Shown: in pieces, positions 2,686-56,415 of the stretch | Numbering within the stretch: position 1 is the first letter of the stretch | Layout: each line of letters opens with the position of its first letter | From: Antennarius striatus | Taxonomy: Eukaryota > Chordata > Actinopteri > Lophiiformes > Antennariidae | DNA: 64,000 bases | Reading direction: 5' to 3' | NCBI RefSeq assembly: GCF_040054535.1 | Contig: NC_090785.1 | Span: 16,556,001 to 16,620,000 of the forward strand | Made by a program: the position numbers and the translations under genes | Notes under the pieces: generated by a model | Seen by the model: only the letters and a program-made list of their open reading frames with translations | Database searches by the model: none | What the model was told of the DNA's origin: nothing

Positions 2686-5600
2686 ATGTCTTTTTCAAGA
2701 GCTCCTTTGAAAAGGTTCAACGACACCATAGGTAAGAAACGTTTAAGAGCTAGCGGTAGTTGCTAATGGCACAGCACAATGCAAGATATTCGATCGTAAG
2801 TAACGTTAGCTAGTATGCTAGCTGACATAACTCAGTACAGGCAGTTTGCTAAGTCAATATTAACTTGAACCAGTCCGGTAGGCTGTTAGTAGAATAGCAG
2901 TCCTGTTACAGCCTGAGAATGTGGTTTCATTTCAATCGTATTTAAACTTTTGAGTGAGTAGCATAAGAAACGGGGTTAACGGTGTGCTATCCGCCGAAGG
3001 TTGTGCCCCTCCACCCGGAACCTACGACATTAAACCTGAGGACCTGAGGGGATCAGTTTCTTTTGACAAGTCTGACCGCTTCAAACATGTTAAAGCAGGT
3101 GAGTAAATAAGCACATGTTTAAAAAACAACAACAACTGAGTAATCTTAATCAATTTTGTGCCAATGGTATATTTCATCTCTGCATCCAGCTGCTCTACCA
3201 CCACCACCACCACCATCGCCCTCCAGAAATGCCTTCGTGTCACCCGTCCGCAGGACTGTGTCTGTTGATGGTCTTGTAAGTTCTCCTTTCAGCATGCAGT
3301 ATCTGGCTTCATCTGCTAGACCAGTGGTCATTAACCTGGGTTCGATCGAACCTTAGGGGTTCGGCGGAGACGGCGATCGAGACAAAACAGCTGACACGTC
3401 GTGTCGGGTGTTTTTGCCGAACATACACGAATCACTGTACGTTTGACACATCGTGTCAATTCGTGATGACACGCCCCCCTTAGCCATCACTGGCTGCAGG
3501 TGATCACGTGACGCTACATCGATTAGCCTACCTGTGCTAGATGGGATTTTGCGCATTTAGTAGTCGTTCTATGCCTGCCATGATTGTGCGTCATCTGATT
3601 GCTTTCTTAATATTTTGATTCATAGTAACTATGTTGAGCAAAAAAAGAAAGTGGTCGGACGGATATGTGTAACCTGAATTTATATGTACTGTATAACGGG
3701 AACGTGATGGGAGTCGGCGTTCTGCATGATTTGCAATGTCAAGTTGAGCAAATCTAGTCTCACACTGGCAAAAATAAAGGAACACTTCCTTAAGCTGCAT
3801 GGGAAACAACAGAAACAGACTTTGCTGTGAAAATGACATCAGAGTAGCACTTGTCAAGGTGAAGCCACGCATATCTGAACTGGTCTCAATAACAGCAGAA
3901 GTCACACTGATTTGCAGGTAGGTCATTTCATGTAAGTTCATGCACTGTCTTGGTTTTGTTCTTTGAAAAAGGTGACATTAATTCAAAATTCATTGAATAC
4001 ACCAGTAAAACATATACTTATGTCTTGAATTTGAATTTTTTTTTTTTTTACTAAAGAAGGGTTTGGTGAGTGAGCATATGAAAGTGGCAGGGTTCAGTAC
4101 CTCCAACAAGGTTCACAACCACTGTGCTAGACCTATGACTGCTCCTGATGTAAAATAATCTGTTTCTCTCATATGAAACCCCAGGTCGAAGGATCAAGTG
4201 TAAAGAAAGAGAAGGATGCCACTTCTATGTCAAGGAAGCAGCAAAAGCTCTTGGAGAAAGAGGTACACTTTTAACTGACACATTATTGATTTCATTGCTT
4301 TATCACAGAATGTTTTACTTGTCAGCATATCTGCAGACATTCATACTACCACTGTTCCTATCACTGCACATGTCAAATCCTTAATTAGTTTGTTTCCTTT
4401 CAGATAAGGTCCTTGGTTCAAGAACGAGGAGAGCAGGACCGCCGTTTGCTCGCTCTAGAAGAGGAGCTGAAGAAAGTGGAGAACAAGCTGCTGTCTGCTG
4501 TCAGGGAGAAGACTGGTCTTGCTGCCAGTGTTACAACTCTTGAAAGACAGAGGGCTGAGCTAAAAAAAGTCAATGAATTCCTGAAAAATAAGGTTTGCTT
4601 GTTTTGTTGATCATTCATAATAGGTAGTGATATATTTTGAAGTCATATCTTGATTACTAATTTTGAAAAGGGTGACTGAGTGTATGCTTGGTTTAGGTTT
4701 CTGCTGACACAACAAAAAAGAGAATAAATTCTCTCACAATGGAGTTGATGGAAGCCAGGAACACTTTGGATGCGAAAAAGAAGGTACTAATTGCAACCAT
4801 ATATTCAGAGCTTCTTCCTTGGTTTGATGATGGCCAAACATTTCATCAGAGTTTATGCGTGTGTGTGTGTGTGTATGTTTATTTTTGTGTACGTCCAGGA
4901 GTTGAGTGTCATGCAGGTTAATACTGATGGTCAACTGAAGGTTCTAGAAACTGACCTCCAAGCTGCCAGGTCTACTGTCACTGCTATGAAAAACAAGAAC
5001 AAAGACTTGGGTGAGATTTAACTACAGCAGATAAACGTGTGTTCATGTAGATGAACAGAAACAAGAGGTGACTGGATGTGTTCTGGGATTTTAAAATTTT
5101 ACAGAGGATTTTCATCAAGTCAGCAAAAGTCAGAATGAAGCCTTGGAGAATGAAAATGCCAGATTATATGGTAAGATCTGAGGATATTCTATTTTTTCCT
5201 TGATAAACAATTAGTATTTTTTTCCCCTGCAAGAATATGTCTCCCCTTTTCATGACAGTTTTCTCAGCCTGATAACAGAAGGTGAGGTGAGTGACTCTGG
5301 AAGAAGATACAGTAGTGGTATTGATAATCAATTTTTGGCCAGTAACTGTAACTGATCCAAAAATTAATCGATCAATCTTTGTTCAGAGTCACTCATTCCA
5401 CATTTGAGATGCAAGTACATTGGCCTCAACATGCAAATGAATAAGCTAGATGACATCAAACAGGATTTGTACTCCTGCTTCCTTTTGTTATTGTCGATAA
5501 ATGTGTGTTGCAGCTGTGATACAAGAGCTGAAAGAGGAGACCAGAGTTGTACAACATTACCTGGATACAGCCAATGACCAGATCCAGGTATTAATTAAAT

Positions 5601-8600
5601 CCATAAAAGCAACTTTTACAAGAACAATTTTTCCTGTGAAAGAGAAGCTTAATCTGTTTGGGGTTCTGCAAAAATATGGAATTTGATATTGGTAATTTTC
5701 AGGACAGAATAAATATAGACAAATGACTTTTAGAATCATGGCAGTCTTAGTAGGAAGCATGTGTTCATGTTCTGGTAGGATCTTTGCCTGAAGCTCCAAG
5801 AAAAGACTAAGGAGAACGCTGTTGCTGGGTCACAGGCGGAGAAAGTAAAGTAAGAATATTAAAAAACCTAACTTTTTTGTTGAGCAAGTTTGATCTGAAC
5901 TGCAAGTGGAAGCAGCAAGACATTCATTTGTCACTTTCCTACAGGCAACTCGAGGCCGAACTTGCACAGTGCACAGCTGATTTGGAAAGCACTCGGAATG
6001 TGCTCAGACAAAAAGATGAAGAGACTCAAACACTGCAGCAAGAGTTACAGGTGTCAAAGGATGCTTTAGTGAAGGTAGAAAGGAGGTTGGAAGACCAAGA
6101 ACAGGAGCTTACATCTTCACAAAATTCCACAAGTTGCTTGGAGGAAAAAATTAATTTGGCCAACCAAGAAATTAAGGACTATCAGGTGACAGTTCGTCAG
6201 CAGGATGCAGAGCTGGCAAGACTAAGGGAAGTGCTCAGAAGGACGGAGAAGGAGCTTGATGAGAGAGTGGCACATCTTGAACAGCGATATCTGTTCTCAG
6301 AGGAAGAGAGAAGTATGGTAGTCATATTCCTGTAATTAAAATTTTAGATGGAAAAACTTTAGTTATGTGTAATATATTTATTATGTATACTGTATATTAT
6401 TTTGGTTATAGGTAAGACTCAGGAGGAGGGGCTGAGGAGAGTGGAGGAACTGAAAACAGAGCTCGTCTCACTAAAAGAGACTAAAAGAGATGAGAGAAAG
6501 AGACAGATTCAGCTCGAGCAGGAAGTCAGTGCTCTAACTGAAGAACTTACAAAAGAAAAGGTGACACATTTTTTTTCTGTTGTGGCACATTTTTAGAGCG
6601 AGTGCATAGCGCAATAACCGGCTGTTTCCATTTCTCTACAGGCACTTGTGGACTCCTTGTCTGTTCTGGTGGAGCAGGAGAGGCAGGATTCAGAGGAGCG
6701 GTTTGGACAGCTAAAGGAGGAGATGGAAGAGGTGCTAGGAGAGCTCGCTCTCCTGGAGAATCAGGAGCAGAAAAGTCAGGAGGCCATCCGGAAGCTGCGG
6801 GGAGAGAATAATGAGCTGGAGGGACAGCTGAATGATACTAGGGCTCTGTTGCAGAGGTGAGCAAAGCACACCCATTCTAACAAGGAAGTGTAAGAATAAA
6901 GATCACAAAACTTGCAAAACAGCTATTTTTTTTGTCAGTCCTTGTTTGCTGCTAATTAGTCACAGGGGGACATAATGCAGAGAAAAATTATCACAGCTTG
7001 CATCTCTGTGACATGTCTGACATGTAAGTTTGCAAGTAACTTCATAACTCCTTTATAGTCTTAGGGGAAGATCTTTAAAAATGGAAGCAGGAAGAGTTGG
7101 GAGAGCCAAAGCGGCTGCATAACAAAATAATCTAGATTTGTTTTGTCATGAAATTTGAATAAATGAAGTAAAATGGCCATCACAATATCTGAATCCTGGA
7201 TGGCTTTGTCAAATGTCTTTTTTTTAGTGCAACTTGCAGCCAAGAACTCAGACATGCAGTTCATGGTGATGCATGACACATTAAGCAGCAAACAGATGCA
7301 GTATTATAACGGTGTTATTGTGATTTGTAGCAAGAGCTGTGATGTGGCAGCTCTAAAAGAGGACCATTTCACAGCCTTGACAGAACTACAAGAGGCACAG
7401 ATGCACTCAGTGAGCAAGATGGCAGATATTGTCACAGAGCTGGAAAGGTGAGTGAATAAAACTGATTGTTTATGGATATTATTTATGAAATGTTTTTTTG
7501 ATTAATATAGATTTTCAAATTAGTTCAGAGAATAAGGTTCATGGAGAGCTTGTCTCATTTTAGTACTAAAGAGGCTCTAAAGCTAGCAGAGGAAGGACAA
7601 AAATCATTGGGACTGGAGGTAGAGAAAGTGACACAGAAAACGAAAGAAGAGAGGGACAAAATCCTCCAACAGAAAGAGGAGGAACTCAAGAGACTGAAGG
7701 AGGTTCTAGAGGAGCACCAGAAGGCACAGCTCACTGAGGCTAGGGAGGAGAATTCAAGGTATGCCTCAAATTGAATTTCAGTGTGCATGAAAGTAATTGT
7801 AACTTTTCAACACTTTTGATATTCTCATTTTCACTGGCTTGATAGACTGTTGCTGGAGGTGCAGACTCGCCTTACACAAAAAGAAAAGGAGATCGAAGGC
7901 ATGGAGGTGAGCCATGCTGCCCTGATTAGTCAACTCCACCGTGAGGTACAGCTGCAGACAAAGGAGAAAGAAGATGCACTGAAACAACTAGAGGAGCAGA
8001 GAGGTCAAAGTGTAACTCTGCTACAAAATGAGAAGGAAGAAGCACAGGAACTGCTTAGACAGGTCAGCCAGGAAAAAGTGGAAATAATGGAACAGCTCAA
8101 ACAAGAGCAAGAAGAGAAGGTTAAAATTCAGACAGCACTTCAAGAGGAAAGGGAAGCACTGGAGGTTGAAAGGAAGGACCACCAGCAAGCAAGGTCAAAG
8201 GTGCACACACTACAGATTGATCTTGACAGGGCAGACAAAGAATGCATGACTCTTCTGTCCGAAGTGAAACTCAAAGAGGAGTCCATAGTTGCCCTTGAAA
8301 ATCAGCTTAACACGGCAGAGCAGGACAGAAATCAGCTTCGGTCTCGCCTGGATGAGGCTGAAAAAAGGAGTTTGAACTTCCAGACCCAATTAGGCCTTAT
8401 TAAAGAGAACACCAAAGCCATGCAGCATGAGCTGGAGGAAAAACGGCAAGACAGAGGGGCTCTACAGGAGCAGGTAGAAATACTGACTCAAGAAAAGGTT
8501 ACACTGCAGTGGGATATGGAGGAGCAGCGGCAGAAACTGGAAAGAGAAATAAAAGAAGCACAGGAGAAAATGTAAGAAATGATGGATTTTACCTGTTTGT

Positions 8601-9783
8601 GCAATAGAGAATTTTATTATTCAATTAATACATTTATCTCTTTATTTTTTTGTTCTCCTAAGTGCCCCAAGTGCAGAGATAGAACACTGGAGGAAACAGT
8701 ATGAAGAGCTGTTTGCAAAAGTAAAGCCTTTCCAGGTCAGTCTTGGTTTATTTTATATCTTCCTCCGAACAAACCTTGTGTTCCTAGGACGAATGTAAAT
8801 ATGGTTGTGCTCTAGGTTAAAAGGCTAATATCTGGAAGTGGATAAGAGTATGAATGTCAAATTCAATGTATTAACTGGTTGAAAACTTTTAATGTCTGAG
8901 TTTGTTGACAACATATCGTAATGAGAGAGATGTTTGTGGATTCTGGGAGACGGGAATTTCAGAAGCCTGTTGGCTTCTACTCGTCAGCCCTTTTTTTCGG
9001 ATGTTGTTGAAGTTGTGAAGGTGTGCAGTCTGTCATATTAACATGTCCGGAAAAATAAATAAATTAATAAATATCTTTACCGAATCCTCTTTCGCTAATG
9101 CTAACCTCACATAATGCTGCCTGTCATTGCTCTATTAACAGGTCTGGCTATATTAATCAAAAGAATTCATCAAAGTTTTTCTAAATAGTAATTCTGTTAA
9201 AACCGAACTAATATTCATGTTGTCCACAGGAACAACTCAATGCATTTGCAGCAGAGCGAAATGCACTACTTAATGAAAACGGAGCAAACCAAGAGGAGTT
9301 AAACAGGTTGTCTGATGCTTACGCCAGGCTACTGGGCCACCAGAACCAGAAGCAGAAGATCAAACATGTGATGAAGCTGAAGGATGAGAACATCTCCCTG
9401 AAACAGGTGATGGATGATTTATATCCAAACCCTACACCTACATTGTCACAAGCTCAAGTGCTGCACTTCTTATTTCGTCTCTGTGCAGGAGATTTCCAAG
9501 CTTCGGTCCCAGGTAAATAGGCAGAAGAGTGATTTGGAGCAGCTGAAGTCAAAACTCCCTGGTGCTTCTTGCCGCAGGTTTGATCCCAGCAAAGCTTTCC
9601 AACACAACAAGGAGAACAGACAAAAGGAAAAAACTGAACCTTTTAAAGATGGTGAGTGCTAACCTGACCTGTCAAAGCAACATTAAGAAACTGCATTCAC
9701 AGTTTTATGGATTTCATGCTATTGTGGAAATATTTGAACGGATGCCTTCTTTCTATGTTTTGTCAGGAAATCATTACGTCTAA
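2686..9783 (+). CDS. hmmr: hyaluronan-mediated motility receptor (RHAMM), 20 coding exons
   Basis: HMMR is a microtubule, centrosome and spindle-associated coiled-coil protein that also binds hyaluronan. Exons: 2686-2731, 3000-3098, 3190-3275, 4185-4262, 4404-4592, 4697-4783, 4899-5010, 5105-5170, 5514-5587, 5779-5849, 5945-6312, 6412-6560, 6642-6856, 7331-7447, 7564-7758, 7846-8571, 8663-8735, 9230-9406, 9489-9651, 9767-9783. All introns are GT-AG and phases chain without a break, giving about 1,035 aa. The start [13 protein letters not shown] matches the conserved HMMR N-terminus, followed by CAPPPGTYD and QERGEQDRR. The middle is a long Glu/Lys/Gln-rich coiled coil. The C-terminus has [24 protein letters not shown] (the basic centrosome/hyaluronan-binding region) and FDPSKAF. 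It is longer than human HMMR (about 724 aa), mainly through coiled coil. The last exon adds only five codons (NHYV plus the split Gly), so the extreme C-terminus is the least certain part. The acceptor of exon 2 has a weak pyrimidine tract. Confidence 0.93.
3322..4124. mobile_element. non-autonomous hAT element in hmmr intron 3
   Basis: This 803-bp insertion is flanked by perfect 8-bp direct repeats TGCTAGAC (3314-3321 and 4125-4132), the target-site length of hAT transposons. It begins CAGTGGTCATTAACC and ends GGTTCACAACCACTG, so the ends are imperfect inverted repeats starting CAGTGGT. No transposase reading frame is visible inside. It lies wholly within the intron between exons 3 and 4 and should not affect coding. 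Confidence 0.8.
5285..5400. repeat. foldback (hairpin) element in hmmr intron 8
   Basis: Two arms of about 50 bp are inverted copies of each other: the left has GAGTGACTCTGG and ATTGATAATCAATTTTTGG (to 5339), the right (5352-5400) has CCAAAAATTAATCGATCAAT and CAGAGTCACTC. The loop is about 12 bp. This is a MITE-like palindrome; no target duplication was recognised. Confidence 0.55.
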
Positions 9784-10140
9784 TGGAGCTCTTCAACCAG
9801 ACAAGCAGTGCCCACTAATTGGCTGCCAGGTTTCATTTCTCTGGATTAGTCCTTCTATCACATCTTTATTTTTTCAGATTTTTACATAGAAAGTGAGGAG
9901 TTACATAATGTGTTTTTGTTAGGGATCGTATTCTACATCTGTGTGTATGTATGTATGGGTTTGTGTAATGATAATTAGTGAAAAGATGCATGCAATCTAG
10001 GAGCAAAAGCATCAAAATATGAGATTGTTATTGTTTATTGTTTGCAATTCTTTTTATCTGTGTAACCAGCAACTATTTCTCTTACTCCTTTTGTAAATAA
10101 ATAAATCGTCTGAATAAACTAAAATTTTACGTCTCTGTCA
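9784..10140 (+). terminator. hmmr: hmmr 3' UTR and polyadenylation signals
   Basis: After the TAA stop (9781-9783) there are two canonical AATAAA hexamers, at 10096-10101 and 10113-10118, which give a 3' UTR of roughly 330-360 nt. No ORF of note lies in the stretch. The gene ends about 200 bp before the polyadenylation signal of the convergent insulin gene. Confidence 0.65.
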
Positions 10141-10335: not shown

Positions 10336-10341
10336 TTTATT
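10336..10341 (-). terminator. insulin gene polyadenylation signal
   Basis: AATAAA on the minus strand, about 84 nt after the insulin stop codon. This fits the short 3' UTR usual for insulin mRNAs. Confidence 0.6.
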
Positions 10342-10424: not shown

Positions 10425-11374
10425 TCAGTCGCAGTAGCCCTCCAGGTGGTAAATGCTGCACGGCTTATGGCAGCACTGCTCCACGATGCCTCTCTTGACC
10501 TTGGGCTTGTTGTGGCCGGATAGAGTCTTCCACAGCCTCTCCTCTTGTCTGGCTCTTTTAGACAGAAAACCTTTGGAGTGGACAAAGTTTCCACAGCCCT
10601 GTATTAAATACTGCTGCTGTGCAAAACTCCAGTTCGTCAAACTTCCATTTAGTCTGCTGACACTTTAATGGAGACTTAATGGCTAGGTAATCTGATCTCC
10701 ACAATCCTTTAGTCTTGTTAGCCTCTGCTTCAACAGCAGATATGATGGAACTCCAGAGGCATGTCATTTCCGAAATGTCAAAATGTAGTTTTGTAACCAA
10801 TAGATTGAGATGAATGGTCTGCATAATGCATTCTGAGAGAACAAAAAAATTATTTAAGAATTCGGGGATCTGTTTAAAACATCAGAAAACAGCATGGCCA
10901 CACCACTGAAATGAGGTTGGAAACAGTCTTTGCACACTGACGATGGTTAGGACAAAGTTTCCCACATGTTGTCTCTCATCATTTTTTCCACAAGCCAGAA
11001 ACATAAATTGGCATTCTCATTAGACTGAATCTGGACTTTAAACAGACGTAAAGCCAGCTTAACATCTTTGGGCCAAGTCATGCTGTTTCTCTGAACTCCC
11101 ACCATCAATGACCAAATTAGAACTTATTTTACAGAACTCAAACAGATACAGTCAAGGCTCCTCCCAAAGTTAACGTGGCCTTACCGAGCACATGTTCCAG
11201 ATCCCGTTTGTGAAGTCGGTTTGGGTTGTGGAAAAAACCCCGTTCTCCACATACAAAGTAGAGCATGTCCACCAGGTGGGAGCCACATAGGTGCTGAGAG
11301 GGGGTTGAGCAAACCCCTGGAGTGTAGAGGATCAGCAGCAACAGCGTGGACTCCACCCATGGTATCTTGGCCAT
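10425..11374 (-). CDS. insb: preproinsulin, divergent teleost paralogue (insb/ins2 type)
   Basis: Secreted hormone precursor acting on the insulin receptor. Two coding exons: 11374-11185 and 10570-10425, joined at a phase-1 intron, the conserved position of vertebrate insulin intron 2, giving 111 aa. Residues 1-23 form a signal peptide with a Leu-rich core and VCS at the cleavage site. The B chain starts [13 protein letters not shown] and retains CGERGFF. Dibasic KR sites follow the B chain (NRLHKR) and precede the A chain (KVKR), which starts [11 protein letters not shown] and ends YCD. All six cysteines, HisB10, ValB12, TyrB16, PheB24/B25, GlyA1-ValA3 and TyrA19 are kept. Oddities are Met at B14, Phe at B17, His at B26, Gly at A18, Asp instead of Asn at A21, a B chain extended to KR at B33-34, and a 31-residue basic C-peptide with an internal KR. 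A 5' UTR intron ends at 11389, 14 nt before the ATG, as in other insulin genes. Insulin identity is near certain; the paralogue label is inferred from divergence. Confidence 0.92.
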
Positions 11375-12484
11375 CGGAGGGAGAAGGGCTGGATGGAACA
11401 CAAAAAGAGTTATGGAGCTTTTCTAACTTTTATTTTGCTTGTTTTATAAAAGCAGAACCGAATCCACCCATCAATACTGCATAGTGGTTTTTATATTCGA
11501 TCAGAGATTTGTTGATAGCAGCTGAACATTAAAATATTTGTTTGTTTAGATTAATTTTGATATAAAAGTTGCTTGAAAGTTGAGACTTGAAAAGATAGAG
11601 ACAAGAATATCAGTACATAGCAATATCCCAAATATAATTAAGAGCTTTGACATGATAAGAAAATGGCACAGGTAATAATTACGCTTCGTTGAAAATCAAA
11701 GGCTGGGATGAGAAGCACTAGTGAAATAATGGCTTAAAATATGATTAGAAGATTCTGAGATTTTACCCCAATTCTGAATCAAAACTCCTGCTTTAATTAA
11801 TGAAAAAACAAAAACAAAATTATTTGCACATTAAAAAAACTCACAACAGTTACATCACATCTACTGATAAGTTTGCTATTTCTAGACAGTTCCCACTGAA
11901 GAAAGTTGAAGGTATTTAGATTTACATTTTTATTCTATAATCTATTGTTATATTATCAAACTGCTGTGTGTTACAAGCTAGAATGACAGCTAGTGCCATA
12001 GTCATTGTACATAATGTCACCTCACCCCAGAGGCCTGTCCCCACCATTCTGTCCACTTTTAGCAGCTATAGCGCTTAGAGGGAATGTCTAAGATTACTGA
12101 AATGTTTTTAGTCAAATCCCATTTGTGATGGATATTCTCCTGGGTTGAAAGATCAGCTCAATTTTCAAGGTGAAAAGCATATTTAGCAGTCATTTAGAAA
12201 CTATATAGACCTTTTGTGGACATCTTATAGTGTACTGCAGATTATTGGATTGAAAATGAATCATTTTAACAGTGTCTGTAACAATGCACCTGTGCCAGGC
12301 ATTACAGCATTGACAGAGCTCTCTATCTGGCCCGCTGCTCGTCTATCCCTCTTGGCTGGATGCCAGGCTCCTTGGCAGAGTCGATAGGTTGAATTAAAGC
12401 TCCTGAACATGCTGCTTTCATCGCTGGTTATTATACACAGACATTTTAAAAGCTGAAAACCTGAGGGAATGCAGAGAAACATAC

Positions 12485-12700
12485 CTGTGTTTGAGGCCTC
12501 AGTACCACAGAGCAGTTGGAAGTTACAGATGTAAAGGGCCTGGGCATTTAAGGCTAAACAGGTTCAGAGAACATCTCCACTTAGCAACCTTTACCTTTTG
12601 TAACTCCAAACCTCCACCCAGCCTCAGCAGGCTCAGTGGACAATGGTAAAGTCTTGAAATTAGCACCCTGACCTGTCGTTAGTACCCTGACCTGTAAGCA
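12485..12700 (-). promoter_or_regulatory. candidate insulin first exon and proximal promoter
   Basis: Insulin genes have a short non-coding first exon. On the minus strand the sequence CAAACACAG ends at 12485 before a good donor, GTATGT, and a TTAAAT element (about 12547-12553) could serve as a weak TATA box about 30 bp before a start near 12520. Further upstream, 12660-12695 holds two tandem copies of a 17-mer (in minus orientation ACAGGTCAGGGTRCTAA), each with an AGGTCA half-site. An A-box-like CTAATTT abuts the proximal copy. The distance to the coding exon (1.1 kb) is plausible. No transcript evidence is available, so this is a guess by structure. Confidence 0.35.
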
Positions 12701-42004: not shown

Positions 42005-45000
42005 AGCCAAGTTGTCTTTTTCTTCTTCTCCTTTCCGCTTTTTCCTTCAGGGGTCGCCACAGCGAATCAGTTGCCTCCTTCTAACCCTGTCTTCTGCATC
42101 CTCTCCTCTCAAACGAATTACCTTCATGTCCTCTTTCACTACATCCATAAACCTCCTCTTTGGTCTTCCTCTAGGCCTCCTGCCTGGCAGTTCAAAGCTC
42201 AGCATCCTTCTACCAATAAATTCACTATCCCTCCTCTGGACATGTCCAAACCATCTCAGTCTGGCCTCTCTGACTTTATCTCCAAAACCTCTAACATGTG
42301 CTGTCCCTCTGATGTACTCATTCCTGATCCTATCCATCCTGGCCACTCCTGAAGAGTACCTCAGCATCTTCATCTCTGCTACCTCCAGCTCTGTTTCCTG
42401 TCTTTTCCTCAGTGACACTGTCTCTAGACCAGGGATTCCCAAAGTGTGGTGCGCGCACCCCTTGTGGTGCGCGAGCTGCCGTAAGGGGGTGAGCGAGTGT
42501 AATGGCAGCTGAGCACCTTGAAATACATAAATAATAAATAAATAATTTAAACACTTTTTAATGGAGGATTAACAGTTTAAATATTTAAATTCATTCACAT
42601 TTGTAATTTTCAATTAAAAAAAGTTTTGGGAAAATTTTAAATAAAAAAAAAAATCCCAAAATGCACTTGGCTTTCTCCTTGCTACGTGCTAGCTTGTTGT
42701 GATAGCAACAACAATAATATGCCGAAATGCATAACTGGTTGAAAACAGGCAGTCTGTCCGGTATTAAATCTGGGAGAAATGAAAGAGGACAGGATACATT
42801 GGCCACAACTGAGAGCTGTGCAGTCTACCAGGCTGAAGAAATCCAGCAGGAAAAAGAGAGTGATGATGACGAGACAGGGGAAACTTAAAATGAGGAGCAC
42901 AGAACACAGAAAACTCACCCGGACACTTCATCGGGAGAAGGGGGTAAAGAACACAATAAGACTCGTACTCGAAAGAGAAAATATGATGTTGAACTTGGGC
43001 GTATGTTATTTTGATTCTTTGTGGCGGAGAAGCATATTTGTTTCCATCTAATAACTGTTAAAGTTTGTTAAATAGGCCTATTTGTTACATAGTAATAACT
43101 GCTGTTCATCACTCATCTGTAGTCGGCCCGCTCAACGACCATTTTGACTTAAAATATTATTATTGTCATTTTTATATTGTTACTATTATTCTCCCCACCG
43201 TTTCTGAAGTGAGAGATCATTAGGGCCATTATTACACAATCTACTCTGTGTTAACAGGATCCTTTATTATTAAACTTGATACCTATATGGCTATAAAGAC
43301 TATGCCTTTTCTTTTTTTTTTCATGTTTTGGGCATTGGGGTGCGTCAGCTAAGTCGGGAGGTAGAAGTGGGTGCGTGAACTGAAAAGTTTGGGAACTGCT
43401 GCTCTAGACCAAACAACATCGCTGGTCTCACCACATTTTTGTACACCTTTCCTTTCATTCTAGCTGAAACTCTTCTACCACACATCACACCTGACACTTT
43501 TTTCCACCTGTTCCATCCTGGCTGTACACACTTCTTCACCTCTTTTCCACACTCTCCATTGCTATGAACTGTTGACCCTAAGTACTTAAAATCCTCCACC
43601 TTCTTGATCTCTTCTCCCTGTGACCTCACTCTTCCACTTGGGTCCCTCTCATTCACACACATGTACTCTGTCTTACTGCGGTTAACATTAATTCCTCTCC
43701 TTTCCAGGACAAACCTCCACCTCTCTAGCTTCTCCTCTGCTTGTTCCCTGCTCTCACTACAGATCACAATGTCATCTGCAAACATCATAGTCCATAGAGA
43801 TTCCTTTCTAAACTCATCTGTCAGCCTGTCCATCACCATAGCGAACAGAGAAGGGGCTCAGAGCTGATCCCTGATGCAGTCCCACCTCCACCTTGAACTC
43901 CTCTGTCACACCTACAGCACACCTCACCACTGTCTTACAGTCCTCATACATGTCCTGCACCGCTCTCACATACTTTTCTGTCACTCCAGACTTCCTCATA
44001 CAATACCACAGTTCCTCTCTGGGCACCCTGTCATAAGCTTTCTCCGGATATACAAAAACACAAAGCAGCTCCTTCTGGCCTTCTCTGTACATCTCTATCA
44101 ACATCCTCAAAGCAAATACTGCAACTGTAGTACTCTTTTTTGGCATGAAATCATACTGCTGCTCACAAAGGCTCACTTCTGCCCTTAGTCCAGCTTCAAC
44201 TACTGTACTCTTTCCCATAACTTCATTGTGTGGCTCATCAGCTTTGTTCCTCTGTAGTTGCCACAACTCTGCACATCTCCCTTGTTCTTAAAAATGGGCA
44301 CCAGCACACTTCTCCTCCATTCCTCAGGCATCTTGTCACTATCTGAGATCCTGTTGAACAACCCAGTCAGAAACTCTACTGCTATCTCTCCTAGACACTT
44401 CCAAACCTCTACAGGTATATCATCAGGACCGACTGCCTTTCCACTCTTCATCCTCTTCAATGCCCTCCTCACTTCAACCTGACTAATCTTTGCTATTTCA
44501 CAACAGTCACCTCTTCTAGTCTTTGTTCTCTTTCATTTGCCTCGTTCATCAACTCTTCAAAGTACTCTTTCCATCTTCCCATCACACTACTGGCACCTGT
44601 CAATAGACTTCCATCCATATCCTTAATCACCCTAACCTGCTGCACGTCCTTCCCATCTCGGTCTCTCTGTCTTGCCAGCCTGTATAGATCAGTCTCTTTC
44701 TCCTTACTGTCCAACCTAGCATACAAGTCATCATAAGCCCCTTGTTTGGCCTTTGCTACCTCTACTTTCACCTTACGCTGAATCTCCCTGTACTTCTGTC
44801 TACTCTCCTCAGTCATCTCAGTGTCCCACTACACTCCTGTACCTCCTCATTCCACTCAAGCCTCTTTATCTACTTTCCTTCCAGATGACACACCAAGTAC
44901 TCTCCTACCTGTCTCCCTGATCACATTAGCTGTAGTTTTCCAGTCATCTGGAAGCACCTCCTGACCTCCCAGAGTCTGTCTTAACTCCTTCCTAAAAGTC

Positions 45001-53764: not shown

Positions 53765-55356
53765 ACCATTAATTCTTCTTCATCTTCTTTTCCTTTCGGC
53801 TTTTCCCTTCAGGGGTTGCCACAGCGAATCAGTTGCCTCCATCTAAGCCTGTCTTCTGCATCCTCTTCTCTCACACCAACTACCTTCATGTCCTCTTTCA
53901 CTACATCCACACACCCACTCTTTGGTCTTCCTCTAGGCCTCCTGCCTGGCAGTTCAAAACTCAGCATCCTTCTACCAATACATTTACTATCTCTCTTCTG
54001 GACCTGTACAAACCATCTCAGTCTGGCCTCTCTGACTTTATCTCCAAAACCTCTAACATGTGCCTCTGATGTACTCATTCCTGACCCTATCGTTCCTGGT
54101 CACTCCCAGAGAGAACCTCAGCATCTTCATCTCTGCTACCTCCAGCTCTGTCTCCTGTCTTTTCCTCAGTGACACTGTCTCTAGACCAAACAACATCGCT
54201 GGTCTCACCACAGTTTTGTACACCTTCCCTTTCATTTTAGCTGAAACTCTTCTATCACACATCACACCTGACACTTCTCTCCACCCGTTCCATCCTGCCA
54301 CGCTTCTTCACCTCTTTTCCATATTCTCCATTGCTCTGGACTGTTGACCCTAAGTACTTAAAATCCTCCTACTTCTTGATCTCTTCTCCCTGTAACCGCA
54401 CTCTTCCACTTGGGTCCCTCTCATTCACACACATGTACTCTGTCTTACTGCGGCTAACCTTCATTCCTCTCCTTTCCAGGACAAACCTCCACCTCTCTAG
54501 CTTCTCCTCCATCTGTTCCCTGCTCTCACTGCAGATCACAATGTCATCTGCAAACATCATAGTCCATGGAGATTCCTGTGCTTACCTCGTCTGTCAGCCT
54601 GTCCATCACCATAGCGAACAAGAAGGGGCTCAGAGCTGATCCCTGATGCAGTCCCACCTCCACCTTGAACTCCTCTGTCACACCTTCAGCACACCTCACC
54701 ACTGTCTTACAGTCCTCATACATGTCCTGCACTGCTCTAACATACTTCTCTGCCACTCCAGACGTCCCCATACAATACCACAGTTCCTCTCTGGGTACCC
54801 TTTCTCCAGATCTACAAAAACACAATGCAGCTCCTTCTGGCCTTCTCTGTACTTCTCTATCAACATACTCAAAACAAATACTGCATCTGTAGTACTCTTT
54901 TTTGGCATGAAATCATACTGCTGCTCACAAATGCTCACTTCTGCCCTTAGTCCAGGTTCAACTACTCTTTCCCATAACTTCATCGTATGGCTCATCAGCT
55001 TTATTCCTCTGTAGTTGCCACAACTCTGCACATCTCCCTTGTTCTTAAAAATGGGCACCAGCACACTTCTCCTCCATTCCTCAGGCAATTTCTCGATATC
55101 TAAGATCCTGTTGAACAACCCAGTCAGAAACTCTACTGCCACCTCTCCTAGACACTTCCAAACCTCTACAGGTATATCATCAGGACCGACCGTCTTTCCA
55201 CTCTTCATCCTCTTCAGTGCCCTCCTCACTTCATCCTGACTAATCTTTACTACTTCCTGGTCCACAACAGTCACCTCTTCTAGTCTTGGTTCTCTCTCAT
55301 CTTCCTCGTTCATCAACTCTTCAAAGCACTCTTTCCATCTTCCCATCACACTACTA
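53765..55356 (-). mobile_element. RTE-clade LINE, 5'-truncated copy
   Basis: The minus strand aligns closely with the RTE at 42.0-46.0 kb but begins only within the linker before the reverse transcriptase. A 217-codon frame (55349-54696) holds [35 protein letters not shown] and VFVDLEKG; a small deletion right after that removes the AYDRV part of motif A and shifts the frame. [14 protein letters not shown] (about 54650) and FADD (54555) follow in other frames, and LRWFVQVQKRDS (about 54000) is the C-terminal signature. The 3' end is GGGGTTGCCACAGCGAATC (53812-53830, given on the + strand). 5' truncation is typical of LINE insertion. Confidence 0.87.
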
Positions 55357-56415
55357 CAAATAAACTTACTGGTGTCCTAAGTGTAACAGTTTTTTTGTGT
55401 TTTTTGAGTATAAGAGACTTGCCTTGTTCTTCACTGTTTTAATGAATGTTTAAATTTGTTCAGTGATACTTTTAATTTAAAAAAAAAAGTATTTGGAGCA
55501 GATTACAAGAAAACACTTAAGAAAAAACGGCAGTTTTTAAACTTTATGTGTGATCAAGTTAAGCTAGCTAGTTATGTAATCATAAATAATAAACTGGGAA
55601 AAAAACAGATCATTTTGATTTTATTTGTGATTATGATTTCCTGTTGAGATAGGAGAAATTACATTTGTGAATGTGATTTGTGTTTGTGAAAATATACTTT
55701 ATGACATCTTCTCTATTCAGCCGTAAGAGCTCATGTAAACTGACTTTGTTTAGTCCGACAGGAAAGATCTCTTCCTGCTATCGGCATAGATTTCTGTGCA
55801 TGTTGGATTGGGTATGAAATTGTCTTTAATTGCACACACACAGAGATGCATCGTATTATCTATTGGGGCACCACATAGTGTATATCAGTGTTTACCTTAT
55901 TATAAATTTAAACACAAAATGAGTCTATTGAGATGTGTGGAAAGCTGCCTCTTGGGCGGAGATGAAATATTAGTAGGGGCTCAGGGGGTGATGGAGAGGA
56001 TGATTAAGAAATTTAAAGGATTTCTCAGCATGCACCTGTCTGAGTCCTTCCTGTGGTGAGCTGAATTTAACAATATTCAAAATAGTATATTTAAATGATT
56101 TGATAATTATATGGTTAGACACCTAATTAAGGTAACAAATCTTGAATACTAATGTCAGAAGCCCTACAGCTTATTTCACTTTATATTTAGTCATAACTAA
56201 ACAGTATTACCTGAAAGATTTTAAATGAGAACCACTAATTTACTTTTATCCATCAAATTTATGACAGTAAGTAGTTCTGTTATATTGCTGAAACTTAGCA
56301 AGCATATGGATACACAAAACCATCTAATAAATGTGTGAAGTATACACACACTCGCTCACATTTTACTTAGAATTGCACTGGTTTGTTTGATATAACCAAT
56401 ATACTGTAATTCAGT
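55357..56415. other. AT-rich intergenic spacer
   Basis: No gene, RNA or repeat recognised. Confidence 0.5.

Follow-up and report, generated by a model that had tools for sequence, protein, structure and literature searches.

An intact insb (preproinsulin b) gene beside hmmr in the frogfish Antennarius striatus

The 64,000-nucleotide stretch analysed here (the window; C10:16,556,001-16,620,000, where C10 is contig NC_090785.1 of the 548-Mb, 42-contig Antennarius striatus assembly) carries an insulin gene on its minus strand, which we identify with high confidence as the frogfish orthologue of teleost insb (preproinsulin b), single-copy and intact. Its coding span is exactly 10425-11374, with the ATG at 11374 and the stop codon TGA at 10427-10425, and two spliced coding exons encode a complete predicted preproinsulin of 111 amino acids. 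Pfam PF00049 (Insulin) matches residues 27-110 of this protein with E=1.9e-24, which excludes a chance open frame. The protein contains six cysteines and a KR pair at both chain junctions (residues 56-57 and 89-90); the putative signal peptide was judged by eye. An earlier note on this DNA had described a complete 111-residue preproinsulin with canonical intron phase, dibasic sites and six cysteines in the hmmr region. All of these are present at 10425-11374 (minus strand), and a complete hmmr gene was found next door.

10336..10341, minus strand: AATAAA polyadenylation signal of insb, 83 nt downstream of the stop codon
10425..10570, minus strand: insb exon 3, with the end of the C-peptide, a KR site, the A chain and the stop codon TGA; placed by its phase-1 acceptor, translation and PF00049
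10571..11184, minus strand: insb intron 2, 614 bp, phase 1, GT/AG
11185..11388, minus strand: insb exon 2, with 14 nt of 5' untranslated region, the ATG at 11374, the signal peptide, the B chain, a KR site and the start of the C-peptide

The intron that separates the two coding exons is 614 bp long, lies in phase 1 and has GT and AG at its ends. The first of them lies between an acceptor at 11388 (TTCCATCCAG/CCC) and a donor at 11185 (TGTGCTCG/GTAAGG, the exon's last base giving G/GTAAGG); the second begins at 10570 (acceptor CACTCCAAAG/GTTTTC). An acceptor at 10598 (ATACAG/GGC) is more obvious, but as a phase-0 site it would throw the reading frame off against the strong phase-1 donor at 11185. 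A suspected frameshift in insb was dropped, as the phase-1 acceptor at 10570 restores the frame. This acceptor gives an LG/FL junction, the same as in the genome's own insa and in insb orthologues.

Among the matches listed (the best 120 of 277), the handfish Brachionichthys hirsutus supplies the closest relative, a preproinsulin b with 85% identity over the full length; many percomorph preproinsulin b proteins in the same set are 69-80% identical. For a tree we aligned 72 rows over 116 columns: the window protein, the frogfish's own insulin from C13, and 70 sequences hand-picked from 207 fetched proteins, with partial and duplicate rows left out. The window protein stands beside that of the handfish (support 99/98, starred), nested in sets of 27 rows (99/85, starred) and 28 rows (99/94, starred). 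Every one of the 19 rows labelled preproinsulin b belongs to the 32-row group that contains these sets (88/93, not starred). The frogfish's C13 insulin clusters with insa in a set of 25 rows (100/95, starred), outside a 9-row insab-like set. The branch common to frogfish and handfish measures 0.14, within the range of other insb branches, and a lophiiform acceleration of insb was rejected on this ground. The tree thus bears out the proposal of the earlier note that this is the second insulin paralogue, of insb type. The neighbourhood agrees as well: hmmr adjoins the gene, as Irwin 2019 (PMC6591164) gives for every insb gene.

A Pfam Insulin search of the genome returned eight exon matches, which resolve into four loci: the insa gene of C13, the insb gene of C10 and, on C22 and C4, two genes of IGF type, to which the names IGF1/IGF2 were assigned from sequence. 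Searches of the genome with the handfish insb and Seriola insab-like proteins found no further insulin gene; a match on C19 at E 0.41 was taken as chance. There is therefore a separate insa gene, at C13:4193006-4193487, and one insb copy was found. The two share the residues of the insulin fold, two coding exons and the phase-1 intron at LG/FL. They differ in chromosome, in the length of intron 2 (134 bp in insa, 614 bp in insb) and in residue A21 (Asn in insa, Asp in insb), and the insa C-peptide is unrelated in sequence and has no internal dibasic pair. The IGF1/IGF2 genes belong to the same Pfam family, but their B and A domains are only 41-52% identical to the window protein where aligned, and their exon structure is of IGF type. 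Compared with teleost insb (Irwin 2019, PMC6591164; NCBI preproinsulin b), the frogfish gene agrees in sequence, in its two coding exons, cleavage sites and six cysteines and in its hmmr neighbour, and differs by ordinary substitutions only.

Sequence conservation was assessed across 59 insb orthologues (P0001-P0063 less P0014, P0040, P0043 and P0061). Mean column entropy was lowest at the cleavage sites (0.06 and 0.00 bits) and rose from the A chain (0.30) through the B chain (0.68) and the C-peptide (1.09) to the signal peptide (1.33). The frogfish protein has the commonest residue at 21/21 A-chain and 4/4 cleavage-site positions; the 21 differences among its 111 residues fall in the signal peptide (nine of 24 positions), the B chain (five) and the C-peptide (seven of 31). 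Met37 of the preprotein, in the B chain, is common to frogfish and handfish alone among these orthologues, and Ser26 occurs in none of the 59. Residue 111 (A21) is Asp, as in 41 orthologues (16 have Asn and two have Glu), whereas Asn is found in 48 of 49 insa rows. Over 47 codons of the A and B chains and the cleavage sites, comparison of the frogfish's own two genes, insa and insb, gave a non-synonymous divergence (dN) of 0.129 and a synonymous divergence (dS) of 1.31 by the NG86 method; maximum likelihood put dS at 9.4, i.e. saturated. For insb generally, Irwin 2019 (PMC6591164) reports a dN/dS of about 0.33 over 44 sequences. The earlier view that the gene is under constraint is supported indirectly by the intact frame, the A chain and the excess of dS over dN, with dS near saturation, and the pattern of conservation across the orthologues is compatible with purifying selection.

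These data bear on whether the gene could be a decaying relic whose frame is still open by accident, a reading to which we attach very little probability. Passages of Irwin 2019 (PMC6591164) describe selection on insb as relaxed relative to insa and insb as not found in 6 of 51 teleosts, and zebrafish insb mutants are described as viable and fertile in PMC6300353, all of which would suit a relic. Against this, the frame, splice sites, cleavage sites, cysteines and poly(A) signal are all intact, and the A chain and cleavage sites are wholly of the commonest type while the signal peptide and C-peptide have diverged.

It is harder still to believe that the gene is insab, the processing-deficient insa copy, or insc. 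Percomorphs often carry insab, which makes it a possible second insulin gene. According to Irwin 2019 (PMC6591164), however, insab is found in the vicinity of sh3pxd2b, and insc in that of prr12/scaf1, rather than beside hmmr, and the insab proteins of that study mostly have no cleavage sites (1 of 14 predicted to be two-chain), whereas the window protein has both KR pairs. The tree sets it far from the 9-row insab-like set, and the Seriola insab-like query, at a cutoff of E<=1, matched nothing beyond the insulin genes of C13 and C10 and the two IGF loci. We regard insab as refuted by the KR sites and the hmmr neighbour, sh3pxd2b itself not having been searched for; insc is excluded solely by the hmmr flank and the similarity to preproinsulin b, with no search made for prr12 or scaf1 and no insc row in the tree. 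We give a negligible chance to the window gene being the main pancreatic insulin, insa, which both the tree and the existence of a distinct insulin locus on C13 refute. The protein of that locus is of insa type and clusters with insa, the Swiss-Prot tilapia insulin INS_ORENI among them, and no other locus matches the insab query as well; the window gene falls among the preproinsulin b rows and adjoins hmmr. Grouping with insa, which the earlier note had named as the outcome that would speak against its proposal, did not occur.

Several points weigh against the assignment to insb as an intact, constrained gene. The 32-row group has only moderate support and the alignment is short; the dN/dS comparison rests on the distant own insa only, with dS near saturation. 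Furthermore, no frogfish insb appears among the protein matches listed (best 85%; the best 120 of 277), in contrast to frogfish hmmr, which was recovered at 100%. The deposited annotation may lack insb or model it at another length.

A further non-coding exon probably lies upstream. Several orthologous predicted proteins have N-terminal extensions; 14 of these were taken, and the 13 with at least 12 residues were searched by tblastn against the window only. Matches at E<0.01 came from four extensions and fell between 12321 and 12588 on the minus strand. Three of these (P0049, 12588-12487, E 8.6e-6; P0066, 12539-12483, E 3.5e-4; P0022, 12521-12477, E 0.003), which together span 12477-12588, end beside a perfect donor, CAG/GTATGT, after 12485, and similarity to the extensions suggests a non-coding exon 1 with its 3' end there.

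12485..12588, minus strand: probable first, non-coding exon of insb, whose 3' end is 12485; 12588 marks the limit of the match rather than of the exon
11389..12484, minus strand: insb intron 1 (inferred), 1096 bp, donor CAG/GTATGT; exon 1 placed by similarity to orthologue extensions

The window counterpart of the P0049 extension contains stops, and the extensions of the orthologue models are probably untranslated sequence read as protein. Inside intron 1, the stretch 12321-12398 (minus strand) resembles the extension of Mastacembelus preproinsulin b (P0038; 69% over 26 residues, E 7.5e-8 against the window). Judged by this similarity, it is perhaps an alternative first exon or a promoter element.

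The C-peptide of insb has a feature that insa does not share. Of the 59 insb orthologues, 51 have an internal dibasic pair in the C-peptide, against none of the 46 insa C-peptides that could be parsed (three of the 49 insa rows could not); the basic segment of the insb C-peptide reads FLSKRARQE... If the pair were cut, insb would be a two-product prohormone releasing two smaller peptides, an output that insa lacks, and this could explain the retention of insb despite viable zebrafish mutants. From the sequence we consider such cleavage improbable. The entropies of K68 and R69 (1.17 and 0.96) are similar to that of the mean C-peptide residue (1.09), and KR stands at exactly that place in only 37 of the 59 orthologues. 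The pair is no better conserved than the surrounding C-peptide, so that a function for it is only hypothetical. Internal cleavage of the insb C-peptide was not mentioned in the titles and abstract starts returned by literature searches, nor in the main-text section on processing of Irwin 2019 (PMC6591164).

The adjoining hmmr gene was read by eye as 20 exons encoding a complete protein of 1035 amino acids, with matches to HMMR_N (5.3e-88) and HMMR_C (3.3e-62). This protein is 100% identical over 1035 residues to the Antennarius striatus hmmr protein P0208. The coding region of hmmr ends at 9783 and the insb stop lies at 10425, with no gene in between; the AATAAA signals of the two genes are about 240 bp apart.

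2686..9783, plus strand: hmmr, 20 exons, 1035 amino acids, complete, tail-to-tail with insb
10096..10101, plus strand: probable polyadenylation signal of hmmr, the first AATAAA downstream of its coding region

Around 3300-4100, including 3594-3977 (plus strand), inspection by eye suggests that an hmmr intron contains a mobile-element fragment, a zinc-finger-like coding remnant. Beyond insb, in a gene-poor stretch, RVT_1 reverse transcriptase fragments of retroelements lie at 43348-44287 and 54699-55376 (both minus strand).

Passages of Irwin 2019 (PMC6591164) place tenm2 beside some insa and insb genes in a few species. In the frogfish, a teneurin-type gene (Ten_N matches, C10:16,978,250-17,092,583) lies about 0.41 Mb from insb; the 20 Ten_N matches in the genome comprise 12 on C10 (three clusters), five on C6, three on C8 and none on C13. 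A teneurin on the insb chromosome only, of the two, neither proves nor refutes an origin by genome duplication. No hmmr relative was detected by tblastn (E<=1e-3) in the 200 kb around insa, where eight of the ten open frames scanned have Pfam matches, including caudal-type and glutamate-receptor-type domains. It is a guess, suggested by human gene positions, that the insa and insb blocks might derive from one ancestral stretch.

From established insulin biology, the signal peptide would direct preproinsulin b into the secretory pathway, disulphide bonds would link the A chain to the B chain, and cleavage at KR56-57 and KR89-90 would be the work of prohormone convertases together with a carboxypeptidase; the two-chain product would then signal via insulin receptors. 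As in zebrafish, frogfish insb is probably expressed in the early embryo and at low levels or not at all in adult beta cells, where the metabolic work would be done by the C13 insa. For zebrafish, PMC6300353 reports that insb expression is confined to early development for the most part and lies largely outside the pancreas, that it is minimal after 48 hours post fertilization and that insb overexpression lowers glucose.

The earlier note called the gene the less studied paralogue. This is true, yet most bony fishes are known to have a second insulin gene of this kind, and PMC6591164 had already described insb across teleosts, together with its constraint and its position beside hmmr. The window insb is well preserved but ordinary, its interpretation as insb is not new, and it alters no view of the insulin family. 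As a clean, single-copy gene linked to hmmr in a relative of the anglerfishes, it is one more useful data point on teleost insulin evolution; cleavage of the internal C-peptide pair, if demonstrated, would offer a testable explanation of why insb has been kept for so long.
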